Assembly (NCBI RefSeq): GCF_000151315.2
Contig: NW_011887292.1
Span: 2,333,181-2,397,180, forward strand
Source of the DNA: Capsaspora owczarzaki ATCC 30864
Taxonomy: Eukaryota; Opisthokonta; Filasterea
Direction: 5' to 3'
DNA: 64,000 bases
Positions 14,704 through 53,464 of this stretch are shown here, one piece after another. Position 1 is the stretch's first letter. The number at the start of each line of letters is the position of its first letter. A model generated the notes under the pieces. It was not told the DNA's origin. It made no database searches and was given only the letters and a program-made list of their open reading frames with translations. Made by a program: the position numbers and the translations under genes.

Positions 14704-17453
14704 TTGCTTTTTTTTTAAGGATGGAAGGATTCTGACTTTCGCGGAACTTGGTGCTGCCTGTTCATTTTGGACGACAATGTCATCTTGTTCATGTCGTAAT
14801 GTCCGATCAGTCTTTTGCACAGTGGTCAGTTTTCCTGCCGTCGTTGGTTGGTTGGTTGCAGTTCAACGGCTCCGCTGAGAACGCAAGCAAGCGAAACTCA
14901 ACTCGAAGAAACGCACACGCGGCTCGAATGGAGCAGAGGAAGACAAAGGGTGAAAACAGGGGTGGGCAGAGGACGGGATGAGCCACGAAAACCGCAACAA
15001 GGAAAGCTGCGCGGCGAAGTGCATGAGCAGGTGTGCATTCAGCCCCATGAGAAACCACGCAGCCGTGTTGATCCGCGCTTGTTGACGAGCGTGTTTCTGA
15101 GGAAAATGTCCTTTTACCTCTTCCCCCCTCTGAGGACATGGGAAGGGGGGATCAGCAAGGAGGCAGGAGATGGTCAGCCCGTCGTCGTCGTCGTGGTTGT
15201 GTGGTTTTTTTGTTTTTTTTTTTTTCTTGTTGGTTTTTTCTTTTTCTTTGCGAATCTGGCGGTCTCCATCGCTTTGGACCCCCCTTTCGCCTCTCGTTTT
15301 CGTTCACCAATCGCCGCGCAACACAGTCTCGTCCCCTTTCCTTTGGTGCTGCCGAGAATGTGATGTGAATCTGTGCGTGTGTGTGCGCGCGCGTGCTGGT
15401 GTGTCCAGAGCACATCAGATTGATCTCGAGTAAAACCCTGCAAACCCAGCTCTTTTTCTCCACCCCGCTGGGCGGGTGGCGGTTTTGGTCCTGCTCGGTG
15501 CACTCGTGGAACGATCGGCTGTTTGTGTTCGTGGTGATCACCCGCGTCCGCTCGTTGCAGCCAGTGCTGCTGGGGCTTGGTGGTCAACCCATCCTTCTGC
15601 TCCTGTATTTGGTTTTAGCGAGCGACGTTTCGTCGTCCTACTCTCTCCCTCTCCCCCAGCTTGACTGCCATGCAATGTTGCTCTCTCTGTGGGCTCATTG
15701 TGCAAGTCGTTCCCTGCGATTGAAGTGAGAGCCGCATCAACCACAACAGGGCGCCTGCATCTCGCCGCCCTGTTTTTTTGCTGTACTGTTGCGGTTGAAC
15801 GGAACCAACTTTTTTTTTTTTTTTTTTTTTTTTTTGTGAGATCAACACTTTCCCCCCCCCCCTTTTTGCTTTGCTTGAGTCGCGTAGTGAGGCTTCACGA
15901 TTTACACGATTGAAAATAACAGAAACGATACACGGGACTGTTTTTTTATTTTCTTCTTCTTCTTTTTAACGTCCGTGTGAGTCGAGCTTGCCGTGCCATT
16001 TGTACTCAATCGTCTCGTTGAATGATGTGCTATTGACAAGCGCCAATTCCAAAAGCCAGTGGAAGTCTAACTTGCTCGGGGGTTGCGGTAGGCAACCAAT
16101 TGTCACCCTTATTTTTTTTATTTTTTTTTTTCGATGCGAAATTCTGCGGCTTTTTTTCTTCTTCTTCTTCTCTGATTGATCTGGGTATCTGAGTTGGTTT
16201 TTGCTCTTGAATCCATTTCCACATGATCCAACACATTGCACTATTTGTACAGCGCTCACAAACAACCTCCTCCAAGCTGCTTGACGCACTCTCGTTGTTC
16301 CATGTCTCACTTGTGATTCGCGCCACTTTTGATGCAAAGTTCGTCTGACTTTTTCCCAGTTTTTTTTTTTCTTTTCTTTGGTGTATTGTTTTTTCCTGAT
16401 TCGGTCAACAGCCCACTGTTCCATTTTGTACCTCAGAGTGAGTGGTCATTGTTTTCTTTTGCCCTTTTTGACCAGCTTCCCAAACACGGCGACGCGAGCG
16501 CGCGGTTTCGGATGTTCTTTTCGTCGGTGCTGTCCGAGCAGCCATCTGGCTGTGCCCCAAAGCACAGAATCAACCCTGAATCCTGCGTGTTGTGTGCGCC
16601 TTTGTGGGGATGGGAGGGAGGCTCGGTGAGTGATGCTGGCTCGGTCAAAATGAGCATGCGTTTTGTTGCGACGTGAAACACGGTGACCGCGTATGTGAAC
16701 GCTGTGCTTTTTTGCGTGCGTTCTCCGCCAGCAACTTGAGCCCATGCTCGTCGGCCTCGAACAAAAGCGCTCTCCGTCTCGTTGCTCAGTGCTGCCATGA
16801 GCTTTTGACACAGTCGCATTGCGCCGTCCACGGCGACTTGAGAGGGAAACTCGGTTTGTTTTGGTTGGCGTTCTTGTGCTTATTTTGCATAGGGTTTTTT
16901 TTTTCTCTTCGTCTTCTTATCCATTCGCGAATCCGCTTCGATCCCGACTTGCAGCACACATGTCGGCACTCGCTTGGCTGTTGCTGTTCCTCGTCCCCTC
17001 GTTGGCCGGGGAGGGGCTTTTTGAGCAAAAAGTTCCGTTGTGTACTTCAACGCCATTTCTGTTGAGTTTTCGATTTTTTTTTTTGTTTCGTTTCTCTTAC
17101 CACAGCTGCGACACCACACCGCACCGCGACTTGTTTGCTCTTGCATTTTATTCGGAACAACACCCTCTGCAATTTTCCTTTTCCCCCTGCGCTCCATCCA
17201 CCCAACCTCGTATCTTGTGTATCCTGCCTGCTTTGTTGCCCTCGTTGGTATATTGTTGTTCTCGTCGTGCTCCTCTCACGCCTCGTCTCCTCTTATTCTC
17301 TCTTATTGCAGGTACTGCCAGGCTTGGTGTCTGTTTGGTTGAACTCGGTATCTCTCCAATCAACCCTCCAGCTCTGCTCGACCGCTCCTTTTTTTTGTTT
17401 TTGGTGTTTTTTTTTTTGGCGTTTCTTGCTCGTTCCGTCGTTGGCTTTATCGA
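14704..17453. other. Long gene-free stretch upstream of the RUNX gene
   Basis: About 2.75 kb, most of the largest gap between genes here. It has no reading frame with codon or domain character. The long hydrophobic frames (for example 16819-17457) arise from T-rich sequence. It contains several poly(T) runs (15200s, 15810-15835, 16100s, 17080s) and a C run near 15852. A possible 5' UTR splice acceptor (TCTTATTGCAG) ends at about 17311. Likely content is the RUNX promoter and a spliced 5' UTR; that is inference. Confidence 0.5.
15810..15835. repeat. 26-nt poly(T) tract
   Basis: Uninterrupted T run in the gene-free stretch upstream of the RUNX gene. A neighbouring C-rich run starts about 15 nt later. 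Confidence 0.9.
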
Positions 17454-18242
17454 ATGAGCATCGCTGCAGCATCACCGACAAGCTACACTTCGCCGAGCAG
17501 CGGACTGCGGCGGACGACGAGGCTGCGTTCCAATCCGCACCATAGCGGCAACGAAGATGAGGACGATGGCGATTACTCGGCAGGGAAAGGCCGGGCAAAA
17601 CGCGCTGCCCGACCTGCCAGCGGCCGCGGGGACGACAGTGACGAGGAAGGCGATGTCGACCACTCTGCCACTGTGAGTCAAACAGACAATCCGTACATTT
17701 TTGTCGTCGGTCTGCCCAAGCATTGGCGTGCAAACAAGGCGCTGCCAGCCACCTTCCGCATCGGCATTCATCCGGGCTATAAGGTGGCGAACGGCACGCA
17801 AGTCATCTTGCACGCCAAGAACGATGAAGTCGGTCAGGCTCAAATTAAGGGCGGGATGACTGTGATTCAGGACAACGCGGCGTTGTTCACCGACCTGCGC
17901 TTTGTCTCGCGGTCGACCTCGCGCAGCGGCCGCGGTAAGCGATTCGACCTGCTCATTTCCATCCTGTGCGAACCGCCCATGTACGCCACTGTGATGGAAG
18001 CGCTGAAAATCACCGCAGATGGCCCACGCGTTCCGCGTTTCCACAAGGAGGGCAAGTCGCCCAATCTTGGTGTTCTGAAGGCGCCCGACACGACCCAAGA
18101 CAGTCCGATGAAGCCGGCATTTGCGCCATCCCAACAACGCCAGCAACCGATGCCTCAGCAACAGCAAGCCCCGCCTCCGCAAGCGCAGCTGCTGCAGCAA
18201 ACCGCTCCTCAGCTTGGTTTGCAACTCCAGCACCCACAACAA

Positions 18243-18274
<32 letters not shown>

Positions 18275-20658
18275 ACAGCCGCAACAGCAGCAACAACATC
18301 CCTTGTCGCTCAACAACATGTATGCCCTTCCTCACAACCCGGCCAACACCACACCCGTGCGACAAAGGACTGTGCCTCCGCCCTTGGCAAGCAGTGCTGG
18401 CTCTGCAGGCAACATGGCCGGTGCTGCTGGTATTGCAATGTATGGCACGCAGGGAAACTTTTTGACGTCCCCTGGCTTTTTCGCTGGCGAGTTTACGCCT
18501 GGGTTTGGTAGTGCCATCACTGGTCAATGGTTGGGCAACCCTTCCGGCGCGGGAGTCACCCGCGGTACGCCCCTTCCATCTCCGGGGCTCTTTGGACCTC
18601 AGGTACCGCTACAGACGCCGCAAGGCGGGCAGGGAATGTACTATTCCACCGGCCACATCCCCATGCCTCCCCAAAGCGGCCAAATGCTCCAGCCGCCACC
18701 AGTCCAGCAACCGCAGCCACACCATCTCCAGCAGCCGCAACAACAACAACAACCACAACAACAGCAACAGCAGCAACAGCAGCAGCAGCAGCAGCAGCCA
18801 CAATCGCAACCACATCACCCGCAGCAGCCAGGCATGCACCAGTTCCAGCCACCCATGCCGCCGGCGTTCAATGTCGGTGGTGGCCACCCCCAACAACAGC
18901 AGGTCAATTCGCAGCACCTTTCACATCCGCCACATCACCAACAACCCGGCCAGCACGGCACCCCTCTCCCCACGCCAATGTCAGCCACCCTCCATTTTAA
19001 CTTTCCTGCCTCCGCTCGCGAGACGGCCATGCTGGAAGAATCGGCGAACGTTTCGCGGTGCTCTATGATTGTCGAAACCCAGTTGACCGGCTTGTCGCAA
19101 CGCGCCCAGAATGCACTCAACGCGTGCACGCATTCGATGCTCTCCATTGGGAGCTGTAACGAAGCCCTCATTCCTCTGAATGAGGCATTGTGGAATCTGG
19201 AGGTAAGAGAGTTCAATCGTCTTAAAGAACAGACTGTCTGTTTCGCCATGGCTGTTTGACTCATTTAATCGATCTGGGGGAGGTGTTTAGAACGCAAAAC
19301 GAGCATTTGACGCGCCCACTGCTGGCTTCGGCGCTGCCTATGAAGAACTTCGGTAGAGATACATGTTTTGTTTTGTGGAGTGTTTGTTTTCGGCTGGGTG
19401 CTTCATTGAGATGTTTTTCGGCGTCCTATTCTAATTTGATCTCTCATCTTTGTTGTTGGTTTTTTTGTTTGTTTGTTTGTTTGTTTGTTTGTTTGTTTGT
19501 TTGTTTGTTTGTTTGTTTTTGTTTCTCCCTTGTTTCCTTGTTTCCTTGTTTCCTTCTCTTGCGCGCAGACAACTATACAAGAACGCACGCGAATCTCTTG
19601 TCACCACCATGGATCATTTGCAGAACGCAATCCATGCACAAGAGAAATTGCATCACCAAACCACCGGCGGCGTGCCTCCGTCGCCCGGTACCCTCAACCG
19701 CGGTGGTAGTTCCGGTTTGGGCGCTGGGTTCCATCGGCTTGGTCTGAGCGGGGCATCAACTGGCTCTGTTCAGCCGTCCTTCGGCATGACGACTGCTGCT
19801 GCAGCAGCATCCGCGCAAGGCTTCCCCGTCGCCGTCAGTGGCGCTGCTGTCGGTCGACCGTCCATTGCTGGAAGCGACACTGGCTCGTTTGTCGTGCCAA
19901 ACCGAATTGGAACTGCCAGTGCCATGCCTGGCTCGACCGAGCCGCTCGTGCCCACTTTTGCGGTCGAACTGGTCGAGAAAAGTGTCCGCGAGCGCCTGGC
20001 TCCGATCGGCAATGCCTCTGCCAGCTCCCTTTTCGTCACGCACTTTGCCTTTTGCCGCCCCTCCGACAAGTGCATGATGCCCGCCGACCACCTCATCGCT
20101 GCCCGCGATGGCGTCATGCTGGTCGGTCTGTTTGCGACAAACGCATCCGCCATCAGTGAGCAGCTCGCGCACACCTCCTTGGACACACTCGCCACGCGCT
20201 CACAATCGCCAAGCAGCAGTGGAGGCGTGATTAGCGCCGCTGTTCATTTGACCCGCATTCTGGATGCAACCCAGATCAGTGCTGGAGCCGACTCAGCCAA
20301 CATGCATCACCTCCAATTCCTGCAACTCCGCACCGAACTTGGCGAGATCCGTATCGCTGGCCCGCGCGAGCAGTACGCCGGCATGTTTGATCTGTTGAAG
20401 GTCATGCGCACTTTTGCAGGCGAGTCTGCTCCGCCGCACGCCGCTGGCAGCAAGCCAGGACTGGTGTTGCCTGGCGAACGCCCTGGTCTCACCATCGAGC
20501 CTCCGTCTCCGCACACTGCTGAAGCGGTCGCAACCCTGATGAACTACGCCGGCACGCCGCGATCTGTCAAGCGTGATGCTGGAATGTTGGAAGAGTCTGC
20601 TTCCTCGGAAAGCGCGGCCTCCTCTGGCTCCAACAAGCGGATACGTATGGACGCGTAA
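17454..20658 (+). CDS. Runt-domain transcription factor (RUNX family)
   Basis: Sequence-specific DNA-binding factor. Exons 17454-19202, 19291-19352 and 19569-20658 encode 966 aa. The Runt domain occupies roughly residues 79-205. It contains LPKHWRANKALP, TDLRFVSRS, SGRGKRF and ALKITADGPRVPR, so the DNA-contact arginines and the K-T-D-R-R set of the final strand are all present. Compared with animal RUNX, a short insertion (about four residues) separates FVSR from SGRGK in the DNA-binding loop. After the domain come long poly-Gln and Pro/Gln stretches, then a helix-rich segment (residues ~520-640). The last part is a further apparently folded region in exon 3 (from about PTFAVELVEKSVRERL) that I do not recognise. 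There is no C-terminal VWRPY motif, so Groucho-type recruitment is not expected. Intron 2 carries a (GTTT)n repeat. Confidence 0.93.
19463..19519. repeat. (GTTT)n microsatellite in RUNX intron 2
   Basis: About 13 tetranucleotide units inside the second intron, shortly upstream of the acceptor at 19568. They supply part of a long pyrimidine-rich region. Confidence 0.9.
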
Positions 20659-21080: not shown

Positions 21081-23843
21081 TCACACATGGGGATTGTTGA
21101 GCCGCAGCAGATGAGAACGCAGGGCCTCCGTCTCCTTCAGCAAACGAGCATTTTCGTTGCGCAGCGCGCGGAGCTCCTTGTGATCAGATTTGCCACTGGT
21201 GCGAGCGGGAGCACCACTCGGTCCAGCGGCCGACGCGTTGGCGCTGCTCTGCTTTGGGGCTTGTTGAGTCTCAGACTCCGATCCTCCCTTGCTCGACATC
21301 TCGATATCCTGCTTCTCTTTGGCAGACGAGCGGTCCCCACCAGACAATGTATTGTTGTTGTTGGGACGGGGCGTGGAGGCACCGCGGTAACTGCTGGTGC
21401 TGACTTCGCCGCCTTTGCCCTTGAGGGTGAGGTAGAGCTTTGGCACAAACAACAGGCCGACAATGATCGGCACAGTCAGCAAGACCTCGAGCGCCTCAAT
21501 GATAAAGAAGAAGGTGGCGTTTCCCGTGGTGGCGCGCAGGATGATTTGCAGAATACTGGCCACAACAATCCAGTTGTAGACGGAGAGCGCGATGAACTTT
21601 GATTCGTTGAACGCCGATGGCGCCTTGCGAACATTAAAGCAAACCACCGCAAGCACGCAGAGCGCGACGAGCTCGATAATGTACATGGCATTGTCCCACC
21701 AAGTAATTCCACACACTTGATAGCTTTGGTTGCCCGAAACCATCGTGTCCGGGTGCGAAGGGTTGACCACCGTCCACACGATGAGAATGCTGACCACGAA
21801 TGCGTTCATTTCAAGGAAGCGGTAGAACAGCCGGCGATCGCTCAGGGGGGTGGACCGAGACACGGTCACTTGCTGGAAGACGCGTGCGATGCGGTAGGTT
21901 TTGAGGAAGAGCGCGGCAAACATGACGCCAAAGCCGAGGTGGCGCATCCAAACGCGGGCTGTGCACTGGCTGGAGGAGGGATCATCCGAGTAGTCGAGGA
22001 AAATCCAGAGCATCGACATGACGGCGCCAAGCAAGATGAGTTCGAGGTACACGGGGCTGGCAGACTGGATGATGCGAACGCGGCGGAAGCCCCAAACCAT
22101 CACCGCCATAACCACGCACAGCATCACGACAAACCCGGCGAGCACAAAGAGAGCGACGCGAGCTCCTGGTGCGGCCGTTGACGGGGTGACGAGCGTGTTT
22201 GGATCGGGCAAACCCCGCTCCCAAAGAGCACGATTGTCCTTCAGCCAGTCACAAGCGGCATCCTCAAGTGTCGCGTTGTGGTAAACAAGTGCGGCAACAA
22301 TGTTTTGCTGGTCGAGTGCAGTGTAGGAAAACTGGCTGATGAAGGCGTGAGCAACCGAGTTTTTGCGCTTCAAACCAGTCCAAGCGAGTTTTTTCAGAAT
22401 GTCCGACTCGTAGTCACAGTTGTAGCCGTCACCGACTGATGATTTGAAGGGTCACACCACAAAGGACGTTGCGCGGCAGGTGGGAAGATTCAACAACCGG
22501 AAGATTCAACAACGGGAATTTCACAACAACATCGCAAGCGATTCAGAACAAAGTGAGCACAAGTCCGACCACACTGCACTGCACGCACGCAGTTAGGCTC
22601 AACAAGGCATTCAAGACAGGCCACTCACGTGCGTTGCAGTCCTCGCTATAGTCGGGTAGCTGAACTCGCTTCAAGCCGATGCCGGAAAGTGGTGAGAAGA
22701 CAGGGTGCGGGACATAGAATTGCATCATGAAGGGCTTGCGAGCAGCGTACGCCACGGCCATGTTGCGAACCATCGCGGCTTCGACATCCCCGTTATCCTC
22801 GGGCAGCATGGGAATCTCGGTCACGTTCATTGGAAGCTCAAGGTTTCGGACAATGGTGGCATCGATCGGACTCCAGCTGGGTGGCGCGGTCCAGAAGGTG
22901 ATGAGGTTTGTATTGTTCTCCTGAAGGCGGCTGAGTTCGCGCACTTGGTCAACGAGGATTGCAAGAGCATCGTAGCAGGCTTGTAGGGTGGCAGATGAGT
23001 TGGCTGGGTTGCACGTGTCGCTGGCGAGCAAGTCTTCGACAGACTCCGCAACGGTGAGCGGACTCGTTGAGTCCGAGACGGACGTGGTAGACGAGTTGAT
23101 CACTGGAAGCTGAAAGATGGCCACAGTTTCGGCAAAGCTGCGAGGGAAGGAGATGGAGAGACGGTGAGCGACGCTTTCGCATTGCCATGTCATGAACGCT
23201 GCCCATCGTTCTTTGACATACTAGTAAGCGTCGTATTGGGTCATTGAGCGACTCAGTTCTGCCACATAGTCGGGAATGTACCAACCGTAGCGGCCAATAA
23301 CGCCGAGCGGGCCAACTGTCCAGGCAACAAGTTGGCGTTGGTCAGTCAGACAAAAATCAAACAGACAAAAGGTCTGTCGAGTGCTTTCTCTCAACACACT
23401 GTAAACGTACCATACTGAACCGAGCCACGAGCAACATAGTGAGCCAATACATCTTCCATCGCCCATAGCTCCATGTATGCGTCCAGGTCTCCGCGGTCCA
23501 TCATCTCAAAAACGACCGTATCGTCGGAACCAATGTCGATGATCGAAGCGGGAATACCAAGCTTTTCCTAAAGAGTTCAGCGGGTAGCAGGAATTAATTC
23601 AACGATTTGCCGCCCGAAAGCAAAAGAAAAAAAGAACAAGGTGTGTGTATGTCGGGGGAGGGGGATTGCACAAGGCGAAACGAGTGGTGACTTTTTGCTT
23701 GTTTTTCCTCCATTTTTTCATTCTTGTTTGACAACTGGGACGGGTTACCTCGAGTAGAATTTTGGCAACCAAGTTGTTGACACGGGCTCCATTCCAATCA
23801 CCTTGGCCCAGACGAATGGGCTCGAGATCCGTACGGAGGACAC
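21081..23843 (-). CDS. Class C GPCR with OpuAC (betaine-binding type) ectodomain
   Basis: Five joined exons, complement(21081-22435, 22629-23137, 23222-23315, 23411-23567, 23749-23843), are open for ~736 residues; the first exon with the start codon is not found. Residues encoded from 23843 to about 22215 match the OpuAC type-II periplasmic-binding fold of glycine betaine ABC transporters. Evidence is GDWNGARVNNLVAKILLE, MMDRGDLDAYMELW, VGPLGVIGRYGWYIPDYV, FMMQFYVPHPVF and EDAACDWLKDNRALW. Next comes a class C seven-helix core (about 22163-21429). It has TM3 following CTARVWMRHLGFG and TM7 ending FVPKLYL, as in GABA-B and glutamate receptors. The tail has low complexity and then a heptad-rich coiled coil (ELRALRNENARLLKETEALR), like the GABA-B dimerisation helix. 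A surface receptor for a betaine-like or amino-acid ligand is inference. Confidence 0.88.
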
Positions 23844-25482
23844 CTGTTGAGACGTACAATAGGGAACAAACAACAAAAGTTAGCAACGAAATCGGAACAA
23901 GCAGCGAGTCGAGGATTTGCCCCCGCTATTATTTCCCGCCCCGCTTTCGTTTTCACTTGGTAGCTCCAGCGTGCCAAATAAGGTCTGTTGTGCCAGAATC
24001 CCCCGCTGTGCTGATGCATGCATGCAACGAAGGAATCGGTGGCGCAAGTGCCGTTTCAACATGGCTGACGACGTATGGATGCAAAAGTGATGAGAAAATT
24101 TGAGCCTGATCCGACGCTTGTTGACTTTTGTTTCGCTTATTTCCCCGGACACGCGCCTATTAGCCAACCCACATGCCGACTCGCAACAACTGGACCTTCG
24201 TGCATGTCACTCGCTCGCAAGGTTGACATGTCACAGAGGATTCACCAGCTGCTTGGACACGTCTTCTGCCGCAACGAAGGTCGAAGCAGCCGCGTTTTGG
24301 TTCTGGGTTTGTGGTTTTTTTGTTTTGAGGCGAAAACCGCAGATGGCACATCCAATCTCAAACCGATAAACACGGCGCCAAAAAAGAAGCAGCGTGCTCA
24401 TTCACCCACTCCCTTAGCCTCCGCTTCACTGAGAAAAGAGTGCTGCTGAGACAGCAGGCGACAAGAGAATGCGAGCGACAGCGCGAAATGGACGCGTTCG
24501 GAACTTACGGCGCTCCGAGTCAGGGAAGCATACGGAAACGGCAGACGGCACAATCAAAAGAAGCGCAACGCACGCGCTCAGAACAGATTGAAACCGCATT
24601 CGCTTTCAATACAGGTTTTTGGCTAAAACTAAAGAGAAAGAGAAAAAAAGAATGAGCCTATATCAAAGGTAGACGGCTCATAAATGAGGCCATTTCGGCA
24701 ACCGACTTGTTTTGACAACTCAAAAAACCTCAAACTCCCCCAAAACTGTTTCATAGCGGGAGGTGTGTCCCAAAAACAGTGCAAAATCAGTGGTAAAAAT
24801 TCTATCCGGACACACATAATCAGGCTAGAACGCTCAAATCCAATAGTGGGAACGTGATTGCTCATCGTTCGTCAGCTGGAAGCGTTTTCGTTTTTTTCAG
24901 TTGCTGGAATTGTGTTTTCGATTGTACTGGCGACGGTACGAATGCCACCCACCACAAATAGGCGCAGTTGGTACTATAGACCATCCAGCAAAAACCACAA
25001 TCAGTTCCCTAGTGCTGGAGCGTGCACTTTCGCAACGCTGGGTCGTTTCGGAACGCGATAGTTCTACACAAACACCGTTGCTTGTGGCGTGCGCTGTTCT
25101 TGCTCGCGGTCGGCATTTCACGCTCCTCTCCATCTGCAACATTGCACCAAACCATATTTCCAATCCATTTAACGAAACTGAGAGGTTACAGGATGGGGAG
25201 CATGGTTTGGAAAGCAGGTCGCCACCTGGGGGTTTGCGAATTTTGCGTTTTCAGATGCGAAACGGTCCATTTTTCTCACATCAGCGTGCCTTCGTCTTCC
25301 CCCCCCCTTCCGCCGTCCACCGTCCGCTGTCGTTGGATGTGTTCTGGTTGTTCACTTTCTACAGTTTGTCGTACGTGTCATGTCTCAGTCTTCTGTTTCG
25401 TGAATTCGTTGTGACGTCGAACATCACCCGATTTGAAAAAAAAACAACAAAAAAACAGCACAACAACAACAAAACTCGACCA
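23844..25482. other. 5' region between GPCR and E-Syt-like gene; holds the missing GPCR exon
   Basis: About 1.64 kb. The GPCR's first known exon begins after an acceptor at 23844-23846 in phase 1, so an upstream minus-strand exon with the start codon and signal peptide must lie here or beyond. I could not pick it with confidence: one ATG at about 24064 leads to a usable donor but gives no signal peptide. The right part holds the promoter of the plus-strand SMP/C2 gene. A frame open on the plus strand from 24901 is upstream of the preferred ATG and lacks domain features. Confidence 0.45.
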
Positions 25483-32723: not shown

Positions 32724-35700
32724 ATGGCGATGAATCGTCTCAAGCAAGGGCTCAACAAGCTCAAAGAGAACATTGAAGAGCGCAAAACAAGGTTTTTTTT
32801 TTTTTTTTTTGAATGCAACATCTCTTTCTCGTTCGCCAACCCCCTCCGCAAGCCAGCTTCCTTCCCTTTGTTCTCATCATTCCCAGCCGTCCCTTGTTGC
32901 CCTCCCTTGTTGCCCTCCCCGTGGCCCTGTTGGAGTGTGGATGCGTTAAAGCGTTCAAACAACGCGACCTTTGACTTTTAATATTTTCGTATTTTTTTTA
33001 TTTTATTGTTTTTACGATTGTTGTCTTTTATGGTTTGAAACTGGGGTGGCTGTTCGGTTTTGAGCTTCCAAACGACTCGCTCGCTCGCTCTCTTTCTCTG
33101 GCTCTCTCTCGCTCTCTGTCTCACTATAGAGTAGTAGTAGTAGTCGTGTTCTTGCCCAGGGCTCCGATGCCACGCCGGGTGCGCAAAACTGTGTGCAAAT
33201 CGCTGTTTGTGTGTGTGTTTGGTCTTGCTTTTTTTTTTTTTTTTTTTTGTGGGATCTTTAAATTTCTGGCTGCATTCACGTTTTGCCGCTGTTTTCGTGA
33301 TTTGGGAAGCGATTGGCGGATTGGTGGATTGGCGGATTGGCGGATGGATGCGAAACAAGCTTGTGGACTTGCAACCGAGCGCAGAACGACCGACTTTGGT
33401 CATTTGGGATTGACGATTGAATGGGGTTGAGTTCGGGGGTTGCCGAACCAAATGGGTGATTGAAAGCTCAGGACCAGGTGCGGCGGTCGCACTGAGCTCA
33501 TGCTTGTTGGGCACTTACGAGACTTCATTGCTGGTGCTCATGAGAGACAAGAGAGTGGGAGAGATGGAGGGGGAGGGGGAGAGAGAACGTGAGCGGTGAT
33601 GTTCGACCAATTTCAACTCTTACGTCCATCGCAAAGCACTGCCCGTCACCCACTTCAAACCATTGCCAATCTATTCCATTGCCCTGGTTGATGTTGTGCT
33701 AACAAAACGCTGCTTCGTCAAACCCCCCCCCCCACCGTTTGCAGTGCTGGGCCCGGTCAACGGTTCAAGGACAAGTCCAGCGATTTGAGCGACGAGCTGC
33801 AGGACATTGAAGCGAATCTCAACGCGACCAAGACCACCTACGAGCTTGTTCTGAAGGTAGGAGATGCACAGACTCTAGACGCAGCAGCAACGGCAAGCTG
33901 GCCGATGGACTGACCGCGGGTGAAACGAGTCGAGTTGCGTTGACGATCTCGTAACTCACTTCCACTCTCTTGGACGTCTGTGTACCCACGCCTGTAGCGC
34001 GCTGAAGACACGCTGCATGGGACCAAGCTGGAGCGCGAAAAGCGCCTCAAGAAAATGGCGCCCGTCAAGATGGCCCAGTCGATGCGAGAGGCTGCTGCGG
34101 CGCTTGGCGAGGAGTCGTTGATGGGCGGCATGCTCATGGAATGTGCCGCGACTCATGACGGGATTGGTGCAGTGCTGGCAGATTTTGAGGAATCTGTTGA
34201 AGAGAAGAGTAGGTGTCCCCCCCCCCTTTCTCTCCAGCGCAGAATTGTGTGGTTGTTTGACTGTGGGCTAACAGCTTCGTCCATCTTGCGCTTCTTTCCC
34301 CAAACAAACCGCAGCAATCGCGCCAATGACTAGCATGCTCAAGCTGGAAATCCGCTTGGCCATTGAATCCCGAAAAAACTTGACACGCTCACGGAACGAC
34401 GTCGACTCGGCGCGCGCCAAGCTGCTGAAGGCGTCCGAAGACAAAGTCGTCCTTGCAGACGAGGAGTTGGGTGCTGCCAAGGAAGAGTACGACATTCTTC
34501 TTGGTGTGTGCGAAGATCGGTTGAATGAATTTGGCAGCCGCGACGCCGAGCACATTGCTCCGCTGATTGACTACATGGAGGCGCTCGATCTCTACCACCG
34601 TCTTGCCAGCGAGCTGCTCGCCTCCACCGTGGCCAAATTGCGCGTCCGCAAGGCCAATGCCTCCAGCCCCACCGTCTTTGGCCGCCCGCTTGTCGAGCAC
34701 TTGGCTGCTGTCGACCGCAACATCCCGCACGTCGTGGACGCCTGCGTGAAGGAGATTCGTCGCCGCGGAATGACCTCGGAGGGTATTTTCCGTCTCTCTG
34801 GCAACTCGGTCACCGTCAAGCGGTTGCGAGCAGCGTTCAACGCCGAGCAGGCGGTTGTCAACTTTGAGTCAGATTCAGACTGGGAGGATGTGGAGATTAA
34901 CGCTGTTGCCGGCGTCCTCAAACTCTACTTCCGCGAGCTGCCCGAGCCGCTGTTGACCTTTGAGCTGTACCGAGACTGGATTAATGCCGGCTCGTTGCGG
35001 GACCACAACGACCGTTTGAATGCTGTTCGCGATGTTGTTGCACGGCTTCCGCAGCAAAACGCTACCATCCTGTTCTTCCTGATGAGCTTTTTGCATGAGC
35101 TCGCAGAAAACCACGATTCGACCAAAATGCACCCCAGCAACCTTTCGATCGTGTTTGGCCCGACGCTGCTGTGGTCGCCCACTCCTGACGATGTCACCTC
35201 CATCATGGAGACGGGACCACAGTCGGCCTGTGTGGAGGCCATGATTGCGTACTCGGACTGGATTTTCGAGGACATTGCCGCAAAAACCGCGGCGTCGGTC
35301 AAACACGCGGCGAACTCGCCCGTTCCTGCCAAAAAGCAGCAGCCTTCGGCACCCGCTGGTGGTTCCGACGAGGCTCACAAACACACAGCGACAGCAACTG
35401 CATCAGCAACTGCATCAGCGCCTGCCGCCGCCAAGGTGCCTCCAGCAAGGCCAGCAACAGCGGCGCGCAAACCTGTCGCAGCGGCCCCGGCTGTGGATTT
35501 GCTGACTGGCGACATTGCCACCGAGAGTGCCCCGCAAGCGAGTGCCACAGACTCGCCGCCCGCCGAGGACACCGCCCAGCCCAAGGCTCTGGCAGGCGCT
35601 GCCGCCACACCGTTTGCCGGCGCCGTCAAACTGCCCATTCCCGGCGCTGCGACTGGCGGTGCTGGAGCGCTCAAGCGACCTCCCGTGCGACCACCTGCGC

Positions 35701-36191
35701 CCGTTGGCAGCAGCAACTCGACTCCAGTGACTCCTCTACACGACCACGGCACAGATGCTCCGCTTCTGGTTAATTTAAGCGACTCGGTAGCAGCTCCAGC
35801 TCCAGCAGCAGCAGCAGCAGCCGCCGCCGCACCTGGCGCAGTGGTGCCACCACGGCCAAAACCACAGCCACGACCCAAATCCACGTACTCTGTCACGAGC
35901 GAGGACTCGTCGTCCGGCAATACCTCGCCCACTGTTCAGACACCAGCCCCTGCAGCAGCAGCAGCAACAGCAGCAGCAGTAACACCGACAGCAGCTCCAG
36001 CTTCTGCAGCCAAGCCCGTGCCGCCTCGCCCACAGCGCCCAAGCGTACCTGCTGTAAACGAGGTATCGGCTGCGCCAGCGACGCCGTCATCGCCCGGAGT
36101 GATGCCAGACGGCACACCTATTCCAGCTGTTCCGCCACGACGCCCCGGTGTCAAGCGCACAGATTCCGACATGGGCAAAGGCCCTGTGTAA
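32724..36191 (+). CDS. BAR-domain RhoGAP (ARHGAP17/RICH-like)
   Basis: Curvature-binding BAR domain coupled to a GTPase activator for Rho-family proteins. Exons 32724-32791, 33745-33856, 33998-34208 and 34315-36191 encode 755 aa. The N-terminal ~245 residues are helical and resemble the BAR region of RICH/nadrin proteins (NRLKQGLNKLKENIEE start, SARAKLLKASEDK, AAKEEYDILL). The RhoGAP domain starts at VFGRPLVEHLA. It holds the catalytic arginine finger in SEGIFRLSGN (Arg290), LKLYFRELPEPLLTF and MHPSNLSIVFGPTLL. The C-terminal ~350 residues are Pro/Ala-rich with several PPxRP-type SH3-ligand motifs (PPRPKPQPRPK, VPPRPQRP). Intron 1 is 953 nt, far longer than the others, with an atypical GTTTTT donor, so the first exon is less certain than the rest. 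Confidence 0.88.
32792..33744 (+). other. Unusually long intron 1 of the BAR-RhoGAP gene
   Basis: 953 nt against 100-140 nt for the gene's other introns. It begins with GT followed by an unbroken T run, and contains a second long T run near 33230 and a GA-rich stretch near 33540-33600. A C run lies just before the acceptor. I see no coding frame with protein character; it could hide an alternative first exon or promoter. Confidence 0.5.
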
Positions 36192-39684: not shown

Positions 39685-42600
39685 ATGTCCGGACCGGCTT
39701 CTGCAGCCGCAGGCGGTCCTGCAGGATTTAGCATGGCGCGTCGCGGCTCCACGCAGTACGAGACGGCTTTCGAGGCCTGGGCAAAGTCGCAGTCGCACGT
39801 CGATGGTAAGACCCGACATGGTTTAACATGTTCCGAACGCCCCTCCTTGTGATGAAATTTCGACATCTAACTCTTGTTTTTTCTCTTTCAACTCGCCTCT
39901 CTGGTCGGGAATCAGCCAACGTACTACGACAATTCCGAGGGGTCATGGAAAAGAACTCGACGGCAGTCAGCACACTAATGGACTTTCTCTCGTTGGACGA
40001 CATGAAGTCTGGTCGCTCGTACGACAAGTCTGGCAGCGAGAACGGCGCCGACGGCTCGAAAGACCTGAGCGACCCGATGCGCAAGACCAAATCATCCAGG
40101 TTTAACACACTGACCAAGACGCTAAACATGCGCAAACTCCAGTTCCGTCGAAGCGCGACGAGCGCGACCATCACGGCTGCGTCAAAAATGCTCGACGACC
40201 TGGAGGCTGGCGGCGTCGATCTGAAAGACCTTGAACACCTCGAGCACATTGCCACCACGCGCGAGGGGAAGCGTCGGTCGGCTGGATCGGCGGCTCTGGT
40301 CGGGCTCTTTTCACCAGTCTCTGGAGACTCCTCCCCCGCCATCGCCGCAGGCGGTAGCGAGAGCTCGTTGCCGCAACTCATCACACCAACAAAGCCAGCC
40401 GAAAGCCCGAGCACCATCAGCGAGCCTGACGACAACCTTCCGATGCGATCCACCCCGCTTGTCAAGGAGCAACGTGCGCAAACGCTGCCTGTTGGCGCCA
40501 CGATGCTTGGCGGAACAACAAGCAACCAGTCGCTTGAAGATGCAAACCGCAACATGCGGCAGCTGTCGGTGGATGGAATGGAGTATTATCTTCAAAAATC
40601 AGACGGTCGCATCATCATCACTGGCGGATTGCTAGAAAAGCTTGTTGCAAAGCTGGCCGACAAGGAGTTGTTAGGTAAGGGAGGCGCGAAAGGGGAGCGG
40701 CTGACGGTTGCGTGACGGTTGCGATCCTGTGTTTTAAACGTTGTTCTCATGGCGGATACTGGCGGATCACTGATTACGCTTTCCACAGACACGGAGTACT
40801 TCAATATCTTCTTGCTAACGTTCCGACACGTGGTCTCCCCCGCCGAACTGATGGACATGTTGCTTGCGCGTTTCGAGTACATGGATGATGACACAAAGCT
40901 GGAGGGTTCGTACGGCGTGGTGCAACTTCGGTAAGACTGGCTGCTGCGTGCGAGCGCATATGTGTGTGTGATGGTTTGTTTTGGTCTTTTGCTCAAACCC
41001 CACTCTGTGGTATGTTGGCATCTTTCGTAGTACGTGCAACTTTGTCACCAAGTGGATGGAAAAGTCTTGGTGCGACTTCCACAATGTCGATCACATGCTG
41101 CGCATGACGGACAAGCTCATGAAGAAAATGCAAGAGCGGCGGTGCGACGCGCTGGCGCAACGAATCCGCTCCACCATGGAGCGAAAGGTAAGCATTGCTC
41201 GGAAGCGGTTTTCTACGATCATTCGCTGAACATTACGATGTGTTTTGTCGCTCACTCGTTTTTCTCCATCGCTTTTGACAACTCTGTTTGACAAATTGCC
41301 CAGTTCCGAGAGACAGAGCACGATATTGACGTTGCAGTCGAATACTTGAATCAAGTGCCACCGAGCGAGCTCGATTTCGACAACATTACTGTTCAAAGTC
41401 TCTTTGAACAGCTTACCATCATGGACTTGCGGTATTTCCGTGCAATCCGCGCCGAAGAGTTTATCGTGCAGCTCTGGGGAAACGACGAAGAACCCAACAC
41501 ATGGCTAGCCAAACACAATCTGACCCAATACGTCGAGTGGTTTAACAAGGTATGCCATTTCCTGAAATTCATTGTCTTGTTGCACAAACGCTCACTGTGC
41601 CCGCCGGATTGTTTCCTTTTTTTTCAACTCGTGCAGATTAGTAGATGGGTTTCGACAGAGATTTGCCTGGCCGTAGATAACAAGGCGCGCGCACTAATTA
41701 TTGAAAAGTTTGTCAAAATTGCCAAGGTACATCGTCACCAAGTGATTTCCTGCTTTCTGTTTTGGCTTCTGCATGCCTTCCTTCTATGCTCACTCTTCTT
41801 GCGTGCTGTCACGTCTCCTTCGTGGAACGCCTCTCCTCAGCTTTGCAAAAAGCATCACAACTTTAGCACGCTCTACGCCATTCTCTCTGGATTGAATCAT
41901 GGCGCGGTCTTCCGCATGAAGAAATCTTGGGAGCTCGTGTCGCATCGGGCCGTTGCGACCTTGAGAGAGCTCGAGCAAGTGATGGATCCAACGCACAACT
42001 TTGACAACTACCGAAAATTCCTCAAGGCAAAGAACAACCTGCCATTGCTCCCGATTCTCGGGCTGTTCCTCAAGGATTTGACCTTCTTGAACGAAATTCC
42101 AAAGAAGATGGCCACTCAATTTATCAACTTTTTCAAACTGCGGAGCGTGCACGATACGGTGAACGACTTTCTCAAGTTCCAGGCGTCGGAATACCCCACG
42201 TTCAAGCCAGACGCCAAAATCGAAGCGTTTTGCCGAAACGTGCACTCGGCGTCAGACCGCGTCTTGTACCAGTACTCTTATCTCTGCGAGCCACGCAGCA
42301 ATAGCTTGCACGAGAAGCTCAAGCTGATTGAGAATCTCGAGTCGTCCAACTTTGGCCGAGCAACACCAACCGGGTTGGCTGGTATGCCCCCACTCGATCG
42401 CCGGCCATCCATTCAGATGCTGAATCGCGATGTCACCTCATCCATGAACTCGTTGAACTCGAACGATGAGTTTGGCTCTCAGTTGTCCAACAACACCACC
42501 GTCCACGCGCCCCATCCGTCGCTGCGTGCCCAGGATAGTTTTGGGAGTGTCGCCAGTGCAGCATCCGCGCCCATGATGACGTCGCGTCGCATGATGTCGG

Positions 42601-42908
42601 AGAGTGCGAGCGACGATCGGCTCCACCCTGACTCACCCAGCGGCGACGCGGGACATAGTGGCGGCGGCCGCAATGGCCTCGAACACCAGAATGTTCCCCG
42701 CTTCTTCCCCTCCTCAAATCTTTCCTCAAATCTTTCCTCAAATCTTCCACCCTCCGTGTCCCCACCCGAGCTTGACAACGACCCCGAGCCGGGTGCTCGT
42801 TCGCGACGACAGTCGTATACGAACAGTGTGACGACCCGAGAGTCGGCACAAGCATCCTATGCTCCACCTGAGGCGCATGATGAGGAGACTGCCGAAACCA
42901 TGCTTTAA
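39685..42908 (+). CDS. Ras guanine-nucleotide exchange factor (RasGEF_N + CDC25 domain)
   Basis: Activates Ras-like GTPases by GDP release. Exons 39685-39805, 39916-40674, 40789-40930, 41031-41187, 41304-41549, 41637-41726 and 41841-42908 give 860 aa, phases consistent. Residues 1-250 show no known domain, but a basic patch (RFNTLTKTLNMRKLQFRR) is visible. The RasGEF_N module runs from DGRIIITGGLLEKLVAKL through NIFLLTFRHVVSPAELMDML. The catalytic domain shows QLTIMDLRYFRAIRAEEF, RWVSTEICLAVDNKARALII, FVKIAKLCKKHHNFSTLYAI, LNHGAVFRMKKSWELV, PLLPILGLFLKDLTFLNE and YPTFKPDAKIEAF. The C-terminal ~170 residues are Ser-rich with a 12-bp coding repeat. The start at 39685 is the first ATG after a possible 5' UTR acceptor; an upstream coding exon cannot be excluded. 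Confidence 0.92.
42711..42746 (+). repeat. Three tandem 12-bp units in the RasGEF tail
   Basis: Three exact 12-nt copies encode SSNL three times in the disordered C-terminal tail of the RasGEF. Confidence 0.85.
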
Positions 42909-49702: not shown

Positions 49703-52700
49703 TCAGTGCGCAGCCACATTAAAGTCGCTCAACAGCGAGGCAAGAACACCTGATACGTGGTGGTCATTCAAACAGTGACCAACGATGTCGGGAATGCAAG
49801 GGGAGAGCGCGGCATGGTTGGCAGGCTCGAGCACGAAATTCTTCAAAACGAGGCCGGCAGCAAACCGCACGCCAGCAGCGATGGGCTCGAGCGGCGCGTT
49901 GTCGTGCGCCGCATGCGGTGCTAATTCCAGCGCACTAGCTGCGAGGGAGATGTGCATGTGAACGGCGTTCAACGCTGGTCGCGTGTTGGCACGGGATTCC
50001 GCTCCCGCAACGATTGCCGTCACAGAGTGTGCTGGCGGCTCAATGCTCTCGATCGGCAATGGTACAGCATGTCGCTTTACTCCCAGAAAGTACGGTCTGG
50101 GGGATTAGAAAACGAGCGAAAGTGAGTTGTCAACGCGAAACATACATTTCCAATTTTTTTTTGCTAGCCACAGCTTGGCACGCTCAGGCCTTACTCAACG
50201 TGGCCGGACGGACCAATGGCCAAGGTAACAGTGGCCTTTAGAAGATCGCGAACAGCTTGGGAAAGCTCGAACGAATCCACGAGCGGCTTGTCGTGCCGAC
50301 GACAATGGTCGGCGTATTCGGCATAGACTTGCTGTGGCGTGACAGTTGGTTCGGAAATGGAAGTCCCACTGAGTCGCAAGTGGGTTTTGATCCTAGACAA
50401 ACAATAGCAATAGCAATAGGATGATCAGTTTTTTGGTAAGTGCGTTCGTTGCCTTACGGGGTTTTGCCGTCCAATTCGTTGCTTCACACAATCTCTCACC
50501 ATTTGCTCGCGTATTTCTCGGCTGCCAGACGTCCGTGATTGGAGGAAGAGCTGGCGTGGGTATGCGGCTTGGAGACTTCGTGGGTCATGTCGTGTTCGAA
50601 AGAGAGAAGCGTGACAAGGAGTCGCACGGCGCCGGGATGGTATGCCAGGGCCGAGTTAATGGACTGATCTAGTTGCGTGAGTTGGTAGAGAGCTTCGAGG
50701 GATGCCAGGACCACTTGGACGTCTGGGACGAGTAAGAGGGTGACGGCGCGTCGCAAAAAGTGATCCGTGCAAATGTTCAAAATAAATTTCGTGTTGGCGC
50801 CCGCGCTAGCCGCCGCAAGATTCGCAGTACAGTCCAATGCAAACAAGACGCGGGATCGGTCGCTGGACATGATACTGTCGACAAGATACCGTTTCAGAAA
50901 CGCGGAAAAGTTGTCGCCGCCAGGGTTTGCTTTGGTTGTTGTTGCACTGTCAGCGACAGATGACAGCTGCGAAACGCGGGCAACAGTCACTAGAATGTCA
51001 AAGGCCTGCTGCCTCCACTCTTGGCGCTGCTCAAACAGAATGCAGCGCTCCAGAAAAGGTTGAATTACGGCGGCCGCGTTTCCAAACGCGGTCATATTGA
51101 GCGCATCTTGCGCCCAATTGTGCACAATGAGCAACACCTGCGATACCCGCTCCATCTGGGCAAGAGACAGTGCGGGACTGACACTCGAGGCCGTGAGCAG
51201 CGGTGGCGACGCATCGTCATCTCGAGCGAGAGCGATGCGTTTTCGTGCACTCTCCTCATCAGCAGGCTCCATGTCCGAGCTGCGCCACCGACGGCTGCCA
51301 GAGGTTAATGGAACCGCCCGACAGTCTTGACTTGGCGCAAAGGCTCGGGCAATGTCAGCAAAGCTGCTGGAAATGTCATCTACCGCTGAAGGGACTCTGC
51401 GTCGCCGCCGCGTTTCGTGCCGCTTATTCTCTCCATCACCATTGTCACCACCACCGCCAGCAAGAGTAGTGTCGCTGGTCGAAGGGGGTTCGTCTTTGAC
51501 AGTCCCTGCGGCACGCAGCTTGTCAAGAGCGGCAAGCTTCGTATCGACATACGAGGGCGCTTGTTGCACAAGAAACTCAACCTGCTGGAGCACGAGCTCA
51601 ATAAGTCCGGGCACTGTCGCTGGACAGATGTCCAGCGTCACGTCACACACGTCATGCGACATGACCACGAGAACGTTGAACGCCCAGTCGATTTCGTTCG
51701 GCAGGGTAGATTGCAGCGCCTGCAGCACTCGCATGCGGCATCCACTCTTCTCGAGGTGATGCAGTTGCTCGTAGCCAACCACAGGCGCACTTGTATCGGA
51801 GGGAAAGAGCGAAAGAAACTTGAACGAAGGATCGTTTTGGACAAGCTGCTGTTGGGCGTGTTGCTGTTCTTGCGGCGCCAGCTGGGGCAATGACAATCGA
51901 GGCTTGGGCTTGTGCAACGAAGAGCCCGACGACGACGACGACGACGAAGTCGACGTCGACGCCTTGGTGCCCGCCACGACCAGCGGGGCGAGGCGGGACG
52001 ACGGGGTGAACGCGTAGCGATCGAGCGCCTGGAGCGCGTCAAAGCCGGAAATGAACGGGTGGTAGGACTCTGCATTAACGTCTGCAGCAAAGCCTGCCAT
52101 GCTGGTATCCCCATGCAAGTGCTGTTGAATGTGAGAATTGGGCGTTTGCCGACCGGGGAGCGGCGAGAGTGTCCGGTCTGCCGCATGCGACCCCGTTGCG
52201 CTCAACGCGGAAGCGTGGTGGTGGTGGGCCGGCGAAGGCAGCACAAATGCAGCAGACGCGGTGGCAGCGGACGCAGCCGCAGATGCCGAGGTGGGATTGC
52301 CAGCACCGGTGCGACTGACGGCGGTCGCCATGGTGGCGCGAGGCTGGAACGCGCGCAACGGGGTGACTGCGTGGCCCACTGCGTCCGGATTGCCCGCCAG
52401 CATGAATGGCGGGAGCTTTCGCCAGTCAATGAACGAGATCGGGTCGAGAGGAGTCTCCACCATGTACGCGCCACCGGGCACGGGCGCCATGCGACCAGTG
52501 GCGTGCGCCACGGCGACCGAAATGTCGTTCACATCTCGCAGCGGCTTGTTCCAGTCTTGCCATGGAATCGAGTCGATGGGTCGTCCGTAGTAGTTGACGA
52601 GCTCGTATTCAATCAGCAGTTTGGCGTAGTACATTTTGAGCACGAACGGCGAGTTGGTGACCGTCCCGGGCAGGTCGATTTCGCGGCCAATCTCTCGCCA

Positions 52701-53464
52701 TAGTTTCAAGCCAGTGACCTGTGATGGACCAGCAGTCAATTTGGGGTGTGGGGGTGGGGTGGAGATGTGAGCTGTGATCAAGATTGACAAAATCTCCCGC
52801 CAAAATTTTCTCCCTTCAAGTCCAGCTGCGTTGTCCCCCGCTTCCCCGACTCTCGCCGCCGCTCGGCCCTTGTGCCACATAAGTTGCCATGTGCAACGAT
52901 CTTGCTCTCTCTCTCTCTTTCTGTTTCTCATGGGTGAGTTCATGGGTTTGAGGCTTACCGATTCAAAGCCACCGTGCGCGGTGACAGCCAAGTAGAGCTT
53001 GTACAGATCCAGCTCGTGCCCGCCGGCCTTCGGAACCTTGAGCGGCGGGTTGCTATGGACATTGAGCACACATTCAAAAGGTGAATGGCGGCGGGGAGGG
53101 GGGGGGTTGTCGAGCGCAAGCAGTCAGTTCACCAGAAGGCACAGATCTCCAACATGACAGATTCAAAGCGATCATCGCTCTTCAGCTTCTTCCGCCCCCT
53201 GACACACACACATCTGATCGAGACAGGAGACCAACACGGCCCATTGCAATAAGGAAGAAAAAAAAGAGCCAAACAACAGGCGGGAGGGCGCGGGTCTGCA
53301 ACGCAATGCTCCACCAACCAACAAACTCAAGCAACCCAACTTGACTCGTTCCTATTGCAATCCGAGCTGTTTGTCGACTTTTACCTGCGCCGGGATTGAA
53401 AGGTGCGAAGGTCCTCGACAAACTCGTCCGAGCCGACAAGCGCAGGGTTTGGAATACGCGACAT
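49703..53464 (-). CDS. ARID2/RSC9-like SWI/SNF (PBAF-type) subunit
   Basis: Chromatin-remodelling subunit. Exons complement(49703-50096, 50195-50392, 50500-52718, 52959-53052, 53385-53464) give 994 aa. The ARID domain is split over exons 1-3: NPALVGSDEFVEDLRTF, NPPLKVPKAGGHELDLYKLY, VTAHGGFESVTGLKLWREI, NSPFVLKMYYAKLLIEYE. Ser/Ala-rich linkers follow, then a helical ARM-like region ending around AVRLLVTLLSFEHDMTHE. An RFX-like segment (WIKTHLRLSGTSIS, VYAEYADHCRRH) spans exons 3-4, the same order as in ARID2. The C-terminal exon is helical and unrecognised. No C2H2 fingers were seen at the end, unlike vertebrate ARID2. Start codon 206 bp from the divergent TRMT44 start. Confidence 0.87.

Follow-up and report, generated by a model that had tools for sequence, protein, structure and literature searches.

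An OpuAC-type binding domain on a class C receptor gene of Capsaspora owczarzaki, one of 12 such genes in the genome

Class C (7tm_3) G protein-coupled receptors (GPCRs) usually, though not universally, carry an ANF_receptor ectodomain. GABA-B receptors bear a coiled coil in the tail, as is likely for the protein described here. Their clamshell meets the seven-helix core without a cysteine-rich domain (PMC12716839), a layout shared with our protein, whereas the clamshells themselves differ (i.e., a type-I ANF flytrap in GABA-B receptors and a type-II OpuAC domain in the present case). GPR158/GPR179 (mGlyR), where the best match to the core was found, have an ectodomain of their own, with Cache and EGF-like domains (PMC12716839). 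In its main text, the same 2025 survey of GPCRs in animal relatives reports diverse nonmetazoan ectodomains, and the word OpuAC is absent from that text (PMC12716839).

The binding protein of a bacterial betaine/choline ABC transporter is a separate protein that accompanies an ATPase and a permease, whereas the sensor studied here is fused to a seven-transmembrane (7TM) core. It shares the PF04069 fold family and aromatic cage positions with TmoX (PDB 4xz6), DmpX (7yle), OpuAC, ChoX, and ProX, and differs from such bacterial proteins in its fusion to a receptor core, an insertion of ~60 residues, additional cysteines, and the loss of the Glu contact of TmoX and DmpX. Another periplasmic-binding family is found on the BMP-bearing class C receptors of Dictyostelium, which we take to be the Grl proteins; BMP belongs to Pfam clan CL0144, whereas OpuAC belongs to CL0177. 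The domain listing of Krishnan et al. (2012; PMC3251606) gives nonstandard periplasmic-binding ectodomains for the Dictyostelium class C receptors, with BMP in 13 members. It also gives six class C receptor genes with OpuAC in Allomyces macrogynus (i.e., AMAG_01750, 04252, 14324, 14326, 15836, and 17562; PMC3251606). In these, as in the receptor described below, OpuAC lies on the N-terminal side of the 7tm_3 core and the organism is an opisthokont; the lineage is a different one (Blastocladiomycota), and the comparison is one of listed domains. A first-pass annotation of the present locus, unaware of this fungal set, had proposed a chimera; the pairing of OpuAC with a class C receptor is not new, and our gene adds to it.

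The gene lies in a stretch of 64,000 nucleotides (referred to here as the window) from contig NW_011887292.1 of Capsaspora owczarzaki ATCC 30864. Its features, in window positions, are as follows.

21081-24599, minus strand: whole gene, six exons with GT-AG introns, 766 codons plus stop in the spliced frame
24509-24599, minus strand: exon 1, start codon and hydrophobic leader, likely a signal peptide (from the frame, the GT-AG border, and hydropathy)
23749-23843, minus strand: exon 2, beginning of the OpuAC domain; cage residue W47 at 23794-23796
23411-23567, minus strand: exon 3, OpuAC; cage residue W97 at 23463-23465
23222-23315, minus strand: exon 4, OpuAC motif VGPLGVIGRYGWYIPDYV
22629-23137, minus strand: exon 5, second lobe of OpuAC; W234 at 22873-22875 and Y287 at 22714-22716
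Within exon 5, minus strand: insertion of ~60 residues (about 158-217) in the second OpuAC lobe
21081-22435, minus strand: exon 6, from the final ~80 OpuAC residues through a short linker and the seven-helix core to the cytoplasmic tail and stop
21438-22160, minus strand: 7tm_3 domain in Pfam, residues 408-648
21099-21179, minus strand: heptad-like C-terminal stretch, likely a coiled coil, residues ~735-761, read from the sequence

Exons 2 to 6 had already been joined in the first-pass annotation, and all five are present at the borders given there, with GT-AG introns, matching phases, and a single frame; the intron at 22436-22628 is exact. The 5' exon at 24599-24509 was overlooked there. The leader that it encodes appears as a hydropathy segment at residues 1-29. 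The receptor gene is adjoined by an open reading frame (ORF) for a Runt-domain transcription factor (17343-19256, plus strand; 5.2e-30) with a glutamine-rich tail; Capsaspora, whose habitat is a freshwater snail, has Runx genes. Ordinary neighbors further along the window include ORFs for a BAR-RhoGAP protein (34272-36188, plus strand), a RasGEF protein (41292-42905, plus strand), and an ARID protein (50499-53123, minus strand).

A profile search of the spliced protein against OpuAC and 7tm_3, set as a check beforehand, matched both families. OpuAC (PF04069) was matched at 1.9e-18 (67.4 bits versus a cutoff of 21.2) in two stretches, the better of which covers residues 39-134, and 7tm_3 at 8.3e-44 (150.6 bits versus a cutoff of 33.5) over profile positions 8-251 of 251. 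The next-best Pfam family had an E value of 0.18; no type-I flytrap (ANF_receptor) was found by Pfam in the ectodomain, where OpuAC is the sole family. Kyte-Doolittle hydropathy at a cutoff of 1.5 resolved six core segments, read as TM1, TM2, and TM4 to TM7, and missed TM3; the full span of the 7tm_3 match supports seven helices. The core keeps the C473/C557 pair (TM3-ECL2) and the motifs PSAFNESK (588-595) and FVPKLYL (645-651). Its best PDB sequence match is GPR158 (4.9e-22), followed by GPR179, GABA-B2, and mGlu2, and the Cys pair, the PSAF motif, and the PK motif of TM7 agree with GPR158 in the alignment. The distance from the conserved PDP (392-394) that ends the sensor to TM1 is about a dozen residues, and the layout is thus closer to that of GABA-B than to that of mGlu receptors. 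We therefore confirm that a class C core and an OpuAC ectodomain are encoded within one gene.

Searching the genome (27.46 Mb, 29 contigs) directly with PF04069 returned just three stretches (L001 to L003), because the domain is split by introns. The window ectodomain as query matched 41 stretches, and 12 copies of the gene are spread over six contigs. The 11 paralogs are C2:683k, C9:98k, four tandem genes at C1:3.120-3.136 Mb, C6:1330k, C11:454k, C11:459k, C11:722k, and C2:1021k. They were modeled with a purpose-made homology-guided aligner led by a homologous protein, the nearest upstream in-frame ATG being taken as the start where the aligned part had no initial ATG. All 11 models run from ATG to stop with no internal stops, and each has a first exon equivalent to exon 1. 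Intron positions are common and in the same phase in 59 of 60 cases (12 genes by 5 introns), with C11:722k lacking intron 2. Every one of the 12 ectodomains matched OpuAC in Pfam, and the C-terminal heptad-like stretch can be aligned in all 12 genes. This exon plan and domain pair, repeated in eleven intact paralogs, and the OpuAC matches of all ectodomains dismiss a splice artifact. The more specific reading that two neighbors, an OpuAC gene and a 7TM gene, were joined in error could appeal to the fact that exon 5, intron 5, and exon 6 are also open in some paralogs, but the order of the parts and the phase of intron 5 are the same in 12 of 12 models, and the last ~80 OpuAC residues are encoded in exon 6 itself, ahead of TM1. 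On the 12 concordant gene models we reject this reading, to which we give very little credence.

Two of the three directly matched stretches (L002 and L003) correspond to C9:98k and C2:683k, in which exon 5, intron 5, and exon 6 are also open as one frame; an unspliced form would add residues at the exon 5/6 junction. The third, L001 (700-2691; domain match at C2:2651118-2652026, minus strand), reads as a single-exon protein with OpuAC (1.5e-9), followed by one apparent transmembrane helix (by eye) and a tail of ~150 residues, with no 7TM domain in Pfam. L001 has a cysteine-bearing insertion of its own and is possibly a single-pass coreceptor or decoy of the OpuAC receptor family.

The genome contains at least 34 7tm_3 stretches, grouping by count into 29 loci, so that the OpuAC sensor is present on 12 of ~29 class C loci (these counts are lower bounds). 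Ten class C loci were scanned with Pfam, and three of these carry type-I flytrap domains (ANF_receptor in L012 and L013 and Peripla_BP_5 in L011); 5_nucleotid_C was found in L024. The single Pentaxin match in the genome shares its contig and strand with a 7tm_3 match ~3.6 kb away. Two other class C cores, L004 and L007 (C3:484k and C19:22k), are preceded by right-handed beta-helix repeats (PF13229), a further unusual ectodomain of this genome. For Capsaspora, the listing of Krishnan et al. (2012; PMC3251606) has 20 class C members, fewer than the loci counted here, including receptors with ANF (three), Pentaxin (one), 5_nucleotid_C (one), and TIG (one).

Beyond this genome, the nearest sequences recovered are binding proteins of bacterial ABC transporters. 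A scan of prokaryote genomes with two short peptide patterns, by which closer bacterial relatives may be passed over, matched 128 stretches and yielded two relatives. L056, from a Kouleothrix metagenome-assembled genome (MAG; presumably Chloroflexota), is 34% identical to the window ectodomain, making it the nearest bacterial protein among the scans made, and L057, from a Verrucomicrobiales MAG, is 30% identical. L056 adjoins an ORF that reads by eye as an ABC ATPase. Matches occurred in 27 of 251 Chloroflexota and 6 of 194 Verrucomicrobiota genomes (counting the two starting genomes), and a plasmid collection gave 14 records at 23-29% identity. In a tree of 39 ectodomains, whose root and donor are not fixed and for which the program warns that long branches meet (chiefly at L001), L001 and the 12 receptors, which make up the 13 rows from Capsaspora, group together (97/92). 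Six bacterial rows, L056 and L057 among them, join this group (99/97), and the 20 other bacterial rows lie apart. The ~60-residue insertion is absent from the seven close bacterial relatives aligned. The earlier suggestion that the chimera was formed independently of the usual ectodomain is consistent with bacterial OpuAC proteins being the closest outside relatives found, and stands that far. Because OpuAC is a bacterial family and the nearest outside relatives found are bacterial, we also considered whether the gene could be a contaminant or a very recent insertion from bacteria, but it has introns, a leader exon, and a eukaryotic-type core, lies on a 3.79-Mb contig beside a Runt-domain gene, and occurs in 12 copies on six contigs. 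The scans made found no intronless bacterial relative of much higher identity than the 34% of L056. We reject contamination, which we regard as scarcely conceivable, on the introns, the eukaryotic core, the 12 copies, and this best bacterial identity.

A profile built from 11 ectodomains ranked DmpX (7yle; 3.4e-16) and TmoX (4xz6; 1.4e-9) first among solved structures. The cage tryptophans named for TmoX are W55, W102, W177, and W222 (PMC8918994), and those named for DmpX include W35, W84, W202, and W152 (PMC10030565). All four TmoX positions align to aromatic residues of the window protein (W47, W97, W234, and Y287, respectively), with W55 and W102 mapped by the ectodomain profile alignment and W177 and W222 via the bacterial relative L056. 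Three of the four DmpX tryptophans (W35, W84, and W202) align to W47, W97, and Y287; W152 falls nine columns earlier than W234 in the automatic L056-DmpX alignment, and the fourth cage position thus rests on TmoX. The ligand-contacting Glu (TmoX E131/DmpX E113) aligns to Y124, so that this polar contact is lost. R123 was tried in its place and rejected, since a full-length L056-TmoX alignment puts the Glu on Y124. Y200, needed for dimethylsulfoniopropionate (DMSP) binding by DmpX, corresponds to Gln 285 of the window protein, whereas the 11 paralogs all have Tyr there. The NCBIfam choline-binding subfamily model scored 30.2, far below its cutoff of 379.05. Of the 12 receptors, ten have W at position 47 (the other two have R and V), and ten have W at position 234 (the other two have F and Y). 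At position 97, Y occurs in five, N in four, and W in three; at position 287, W occurs in four, Y and T in three apiece, and G and A once apiece. Only three receptors, i.e., subfamily I (the window gene, C2:683k, and C9:98k), have an aromatic residue at every one of the four positions.

The four aromatic cage positions make a small quaternary-ammonium-like ligand plausible for the window receptor. The betaine- or choline-like sensing proposed in the first-pass annotation is accordingly plausible from the aromatic cage positions in the alignment, whereas the polar contacts of known binders are lost. That loss of the Glu and Tyr contacts of TmoX and DmpX would also suit a receptor of the same architecture for another kind of ligand (e.g., an amino acid or a peptide fragment), its aromatics being inherited fold residues, as would subfamily III, in which position 287 is G, T, or A and position 47 is R or V in two of the five members. 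We judge this somewhat unlikely, given the full set of four aromatics in the window protein and in its two closest paralogs. The divergent pockets of subfamily III, together with a second-lobe insertion carrying conserved cysteines (C188/C200), could also indicate an ectodomain that binds no small ligand and is a mere scaffold for dimerization or for a partner protein, but the ectodomains have invariant fold residues in common and appear to evolve under purifying selection (dN/dS of 0.12-0.36 within subfamilies where estimable, many dS values being saturated), and a scaffold role appears improbable.

The preferred reading, which we consider reasonably probable from sequence comparison, is a class C receptor with an OpuAC clamshell gated by a quaternary-ammonium-like osmolyte and working in a GABA-B-like manner. 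The clamshell, a type-II solute-binding domain of bacterial ancestry, would replace the type-I flytrap. Between the lobes, W47, W97, W234, and Y287 would cage a small solute, for which a quaternary-ammonium-like osmolyte of the trimethylamine N-oxide (TMAO), glycine betaine, choline, or DMSP class is the likeliest candidate. Closure of the lobes would move the short linker (residues ~395-407, with no cysteine-rich domain) and switch the seven-helix core of a putative dimer aided by the tail coiled coil. The core would then activate a heterotrimeric G protein, much as GABA-B receptors do; the same genome encodes G-alpha proteins (26 matched stretches; best, 1.9e-129). We infer the ligand class, the dimer, and the G-protein coupling by analogy.

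The sensor and transducer halves differ in their divergence among paralogs. In all six pairs of the four tandem genes, pS is 0.60-0.85 in the ectodomain, which is close to saturation, 0.08-0.12 in the 7TM part, and 0.05-0.21 in the tail, and the contrast at fourfold sites has P values of 1.3e-29 to 1.6e-11 (uncorrected). C11:459k shows the contrast with C11:454k (P = 1.6e-12) and with C2:1021k (P = 7.5e-8; fourfold sites, uncorrected), and these eight pairs are the strongest of 66 tested. Eight more listed pairs, between subfamilies, have P values of 2.6e-4 to 0.045 (fourfold sites, uncorrected), suggesting that the core is somewhat slower at silent sites generally. C11:454k and C2:1021k show no contrast with each other (pS of 0.14-0.28 in the ectodomain and 0.13 in the 7TM part); this pair is a recent copy of the entire gene. 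Exon 6 contains the switch from diverged to similar, which falls in the linker and TM1, near residue 395 for 3121k/3125k and extending as far as residue ~437 for other pairs. Among the four tandem genes, intron 5 and the greater part of the 3' flank look unalike (judged by eye), and in 3121k and 3125k the first ~17 bases after the stop are alike. Gene conversion of the transducer half would be the simplest cause of the near-identical 7TM parts, and it may be confined to that part merely because the genes are still similar enough there. Exon shuffling was rejected, as the switch is inside exon 6 and intron 5 and most of the 3' flank are unalike. General codon constraint on the core was likewise rejected: the 7TM pS of the window gene versus its two closest paralogs is 0.575 and 0.557, and 10 of its 11 pairs have P values of >0.05 at fourfold sites (0.006 in the other; uncorrected). 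The window gene shows no conversion tract of the tandem-gene kind.

More tentatively, and with less than even confidence, we envisage the 12 genes as a chemosensory repertoire built on one captured bacterial solute-binding module, in which pockets would diversify gene by gene while conversion keeps the 7TM parts uniform within clusters, so that many sensors feed one signaling output; the window gene would be its quaternary-ammonium sensor, possibly for osmolytes of host or food. The literature searched (for PMC12716839, the main text) contains no mention of an OpuAC class C receptor in Capsaspora. Neither the 12-gene family nor its three pocket types were found in that literature, and the conversion pattern was not met there, in a search not aimed at gene conversion.

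These observations indicate that, in a lineage next to animals, a class C receptor can use a clamshell fold of bacterial transport as its sensor. They offer a testable guess at the ligand, and the combination of diverged sensors with homogenized cores would allow pocket-by-pocket deorphanization in a nonanimal. The finding also bears on whether OpuAC receptors were already present in the opisthokont ancestor or have arisen more than once.
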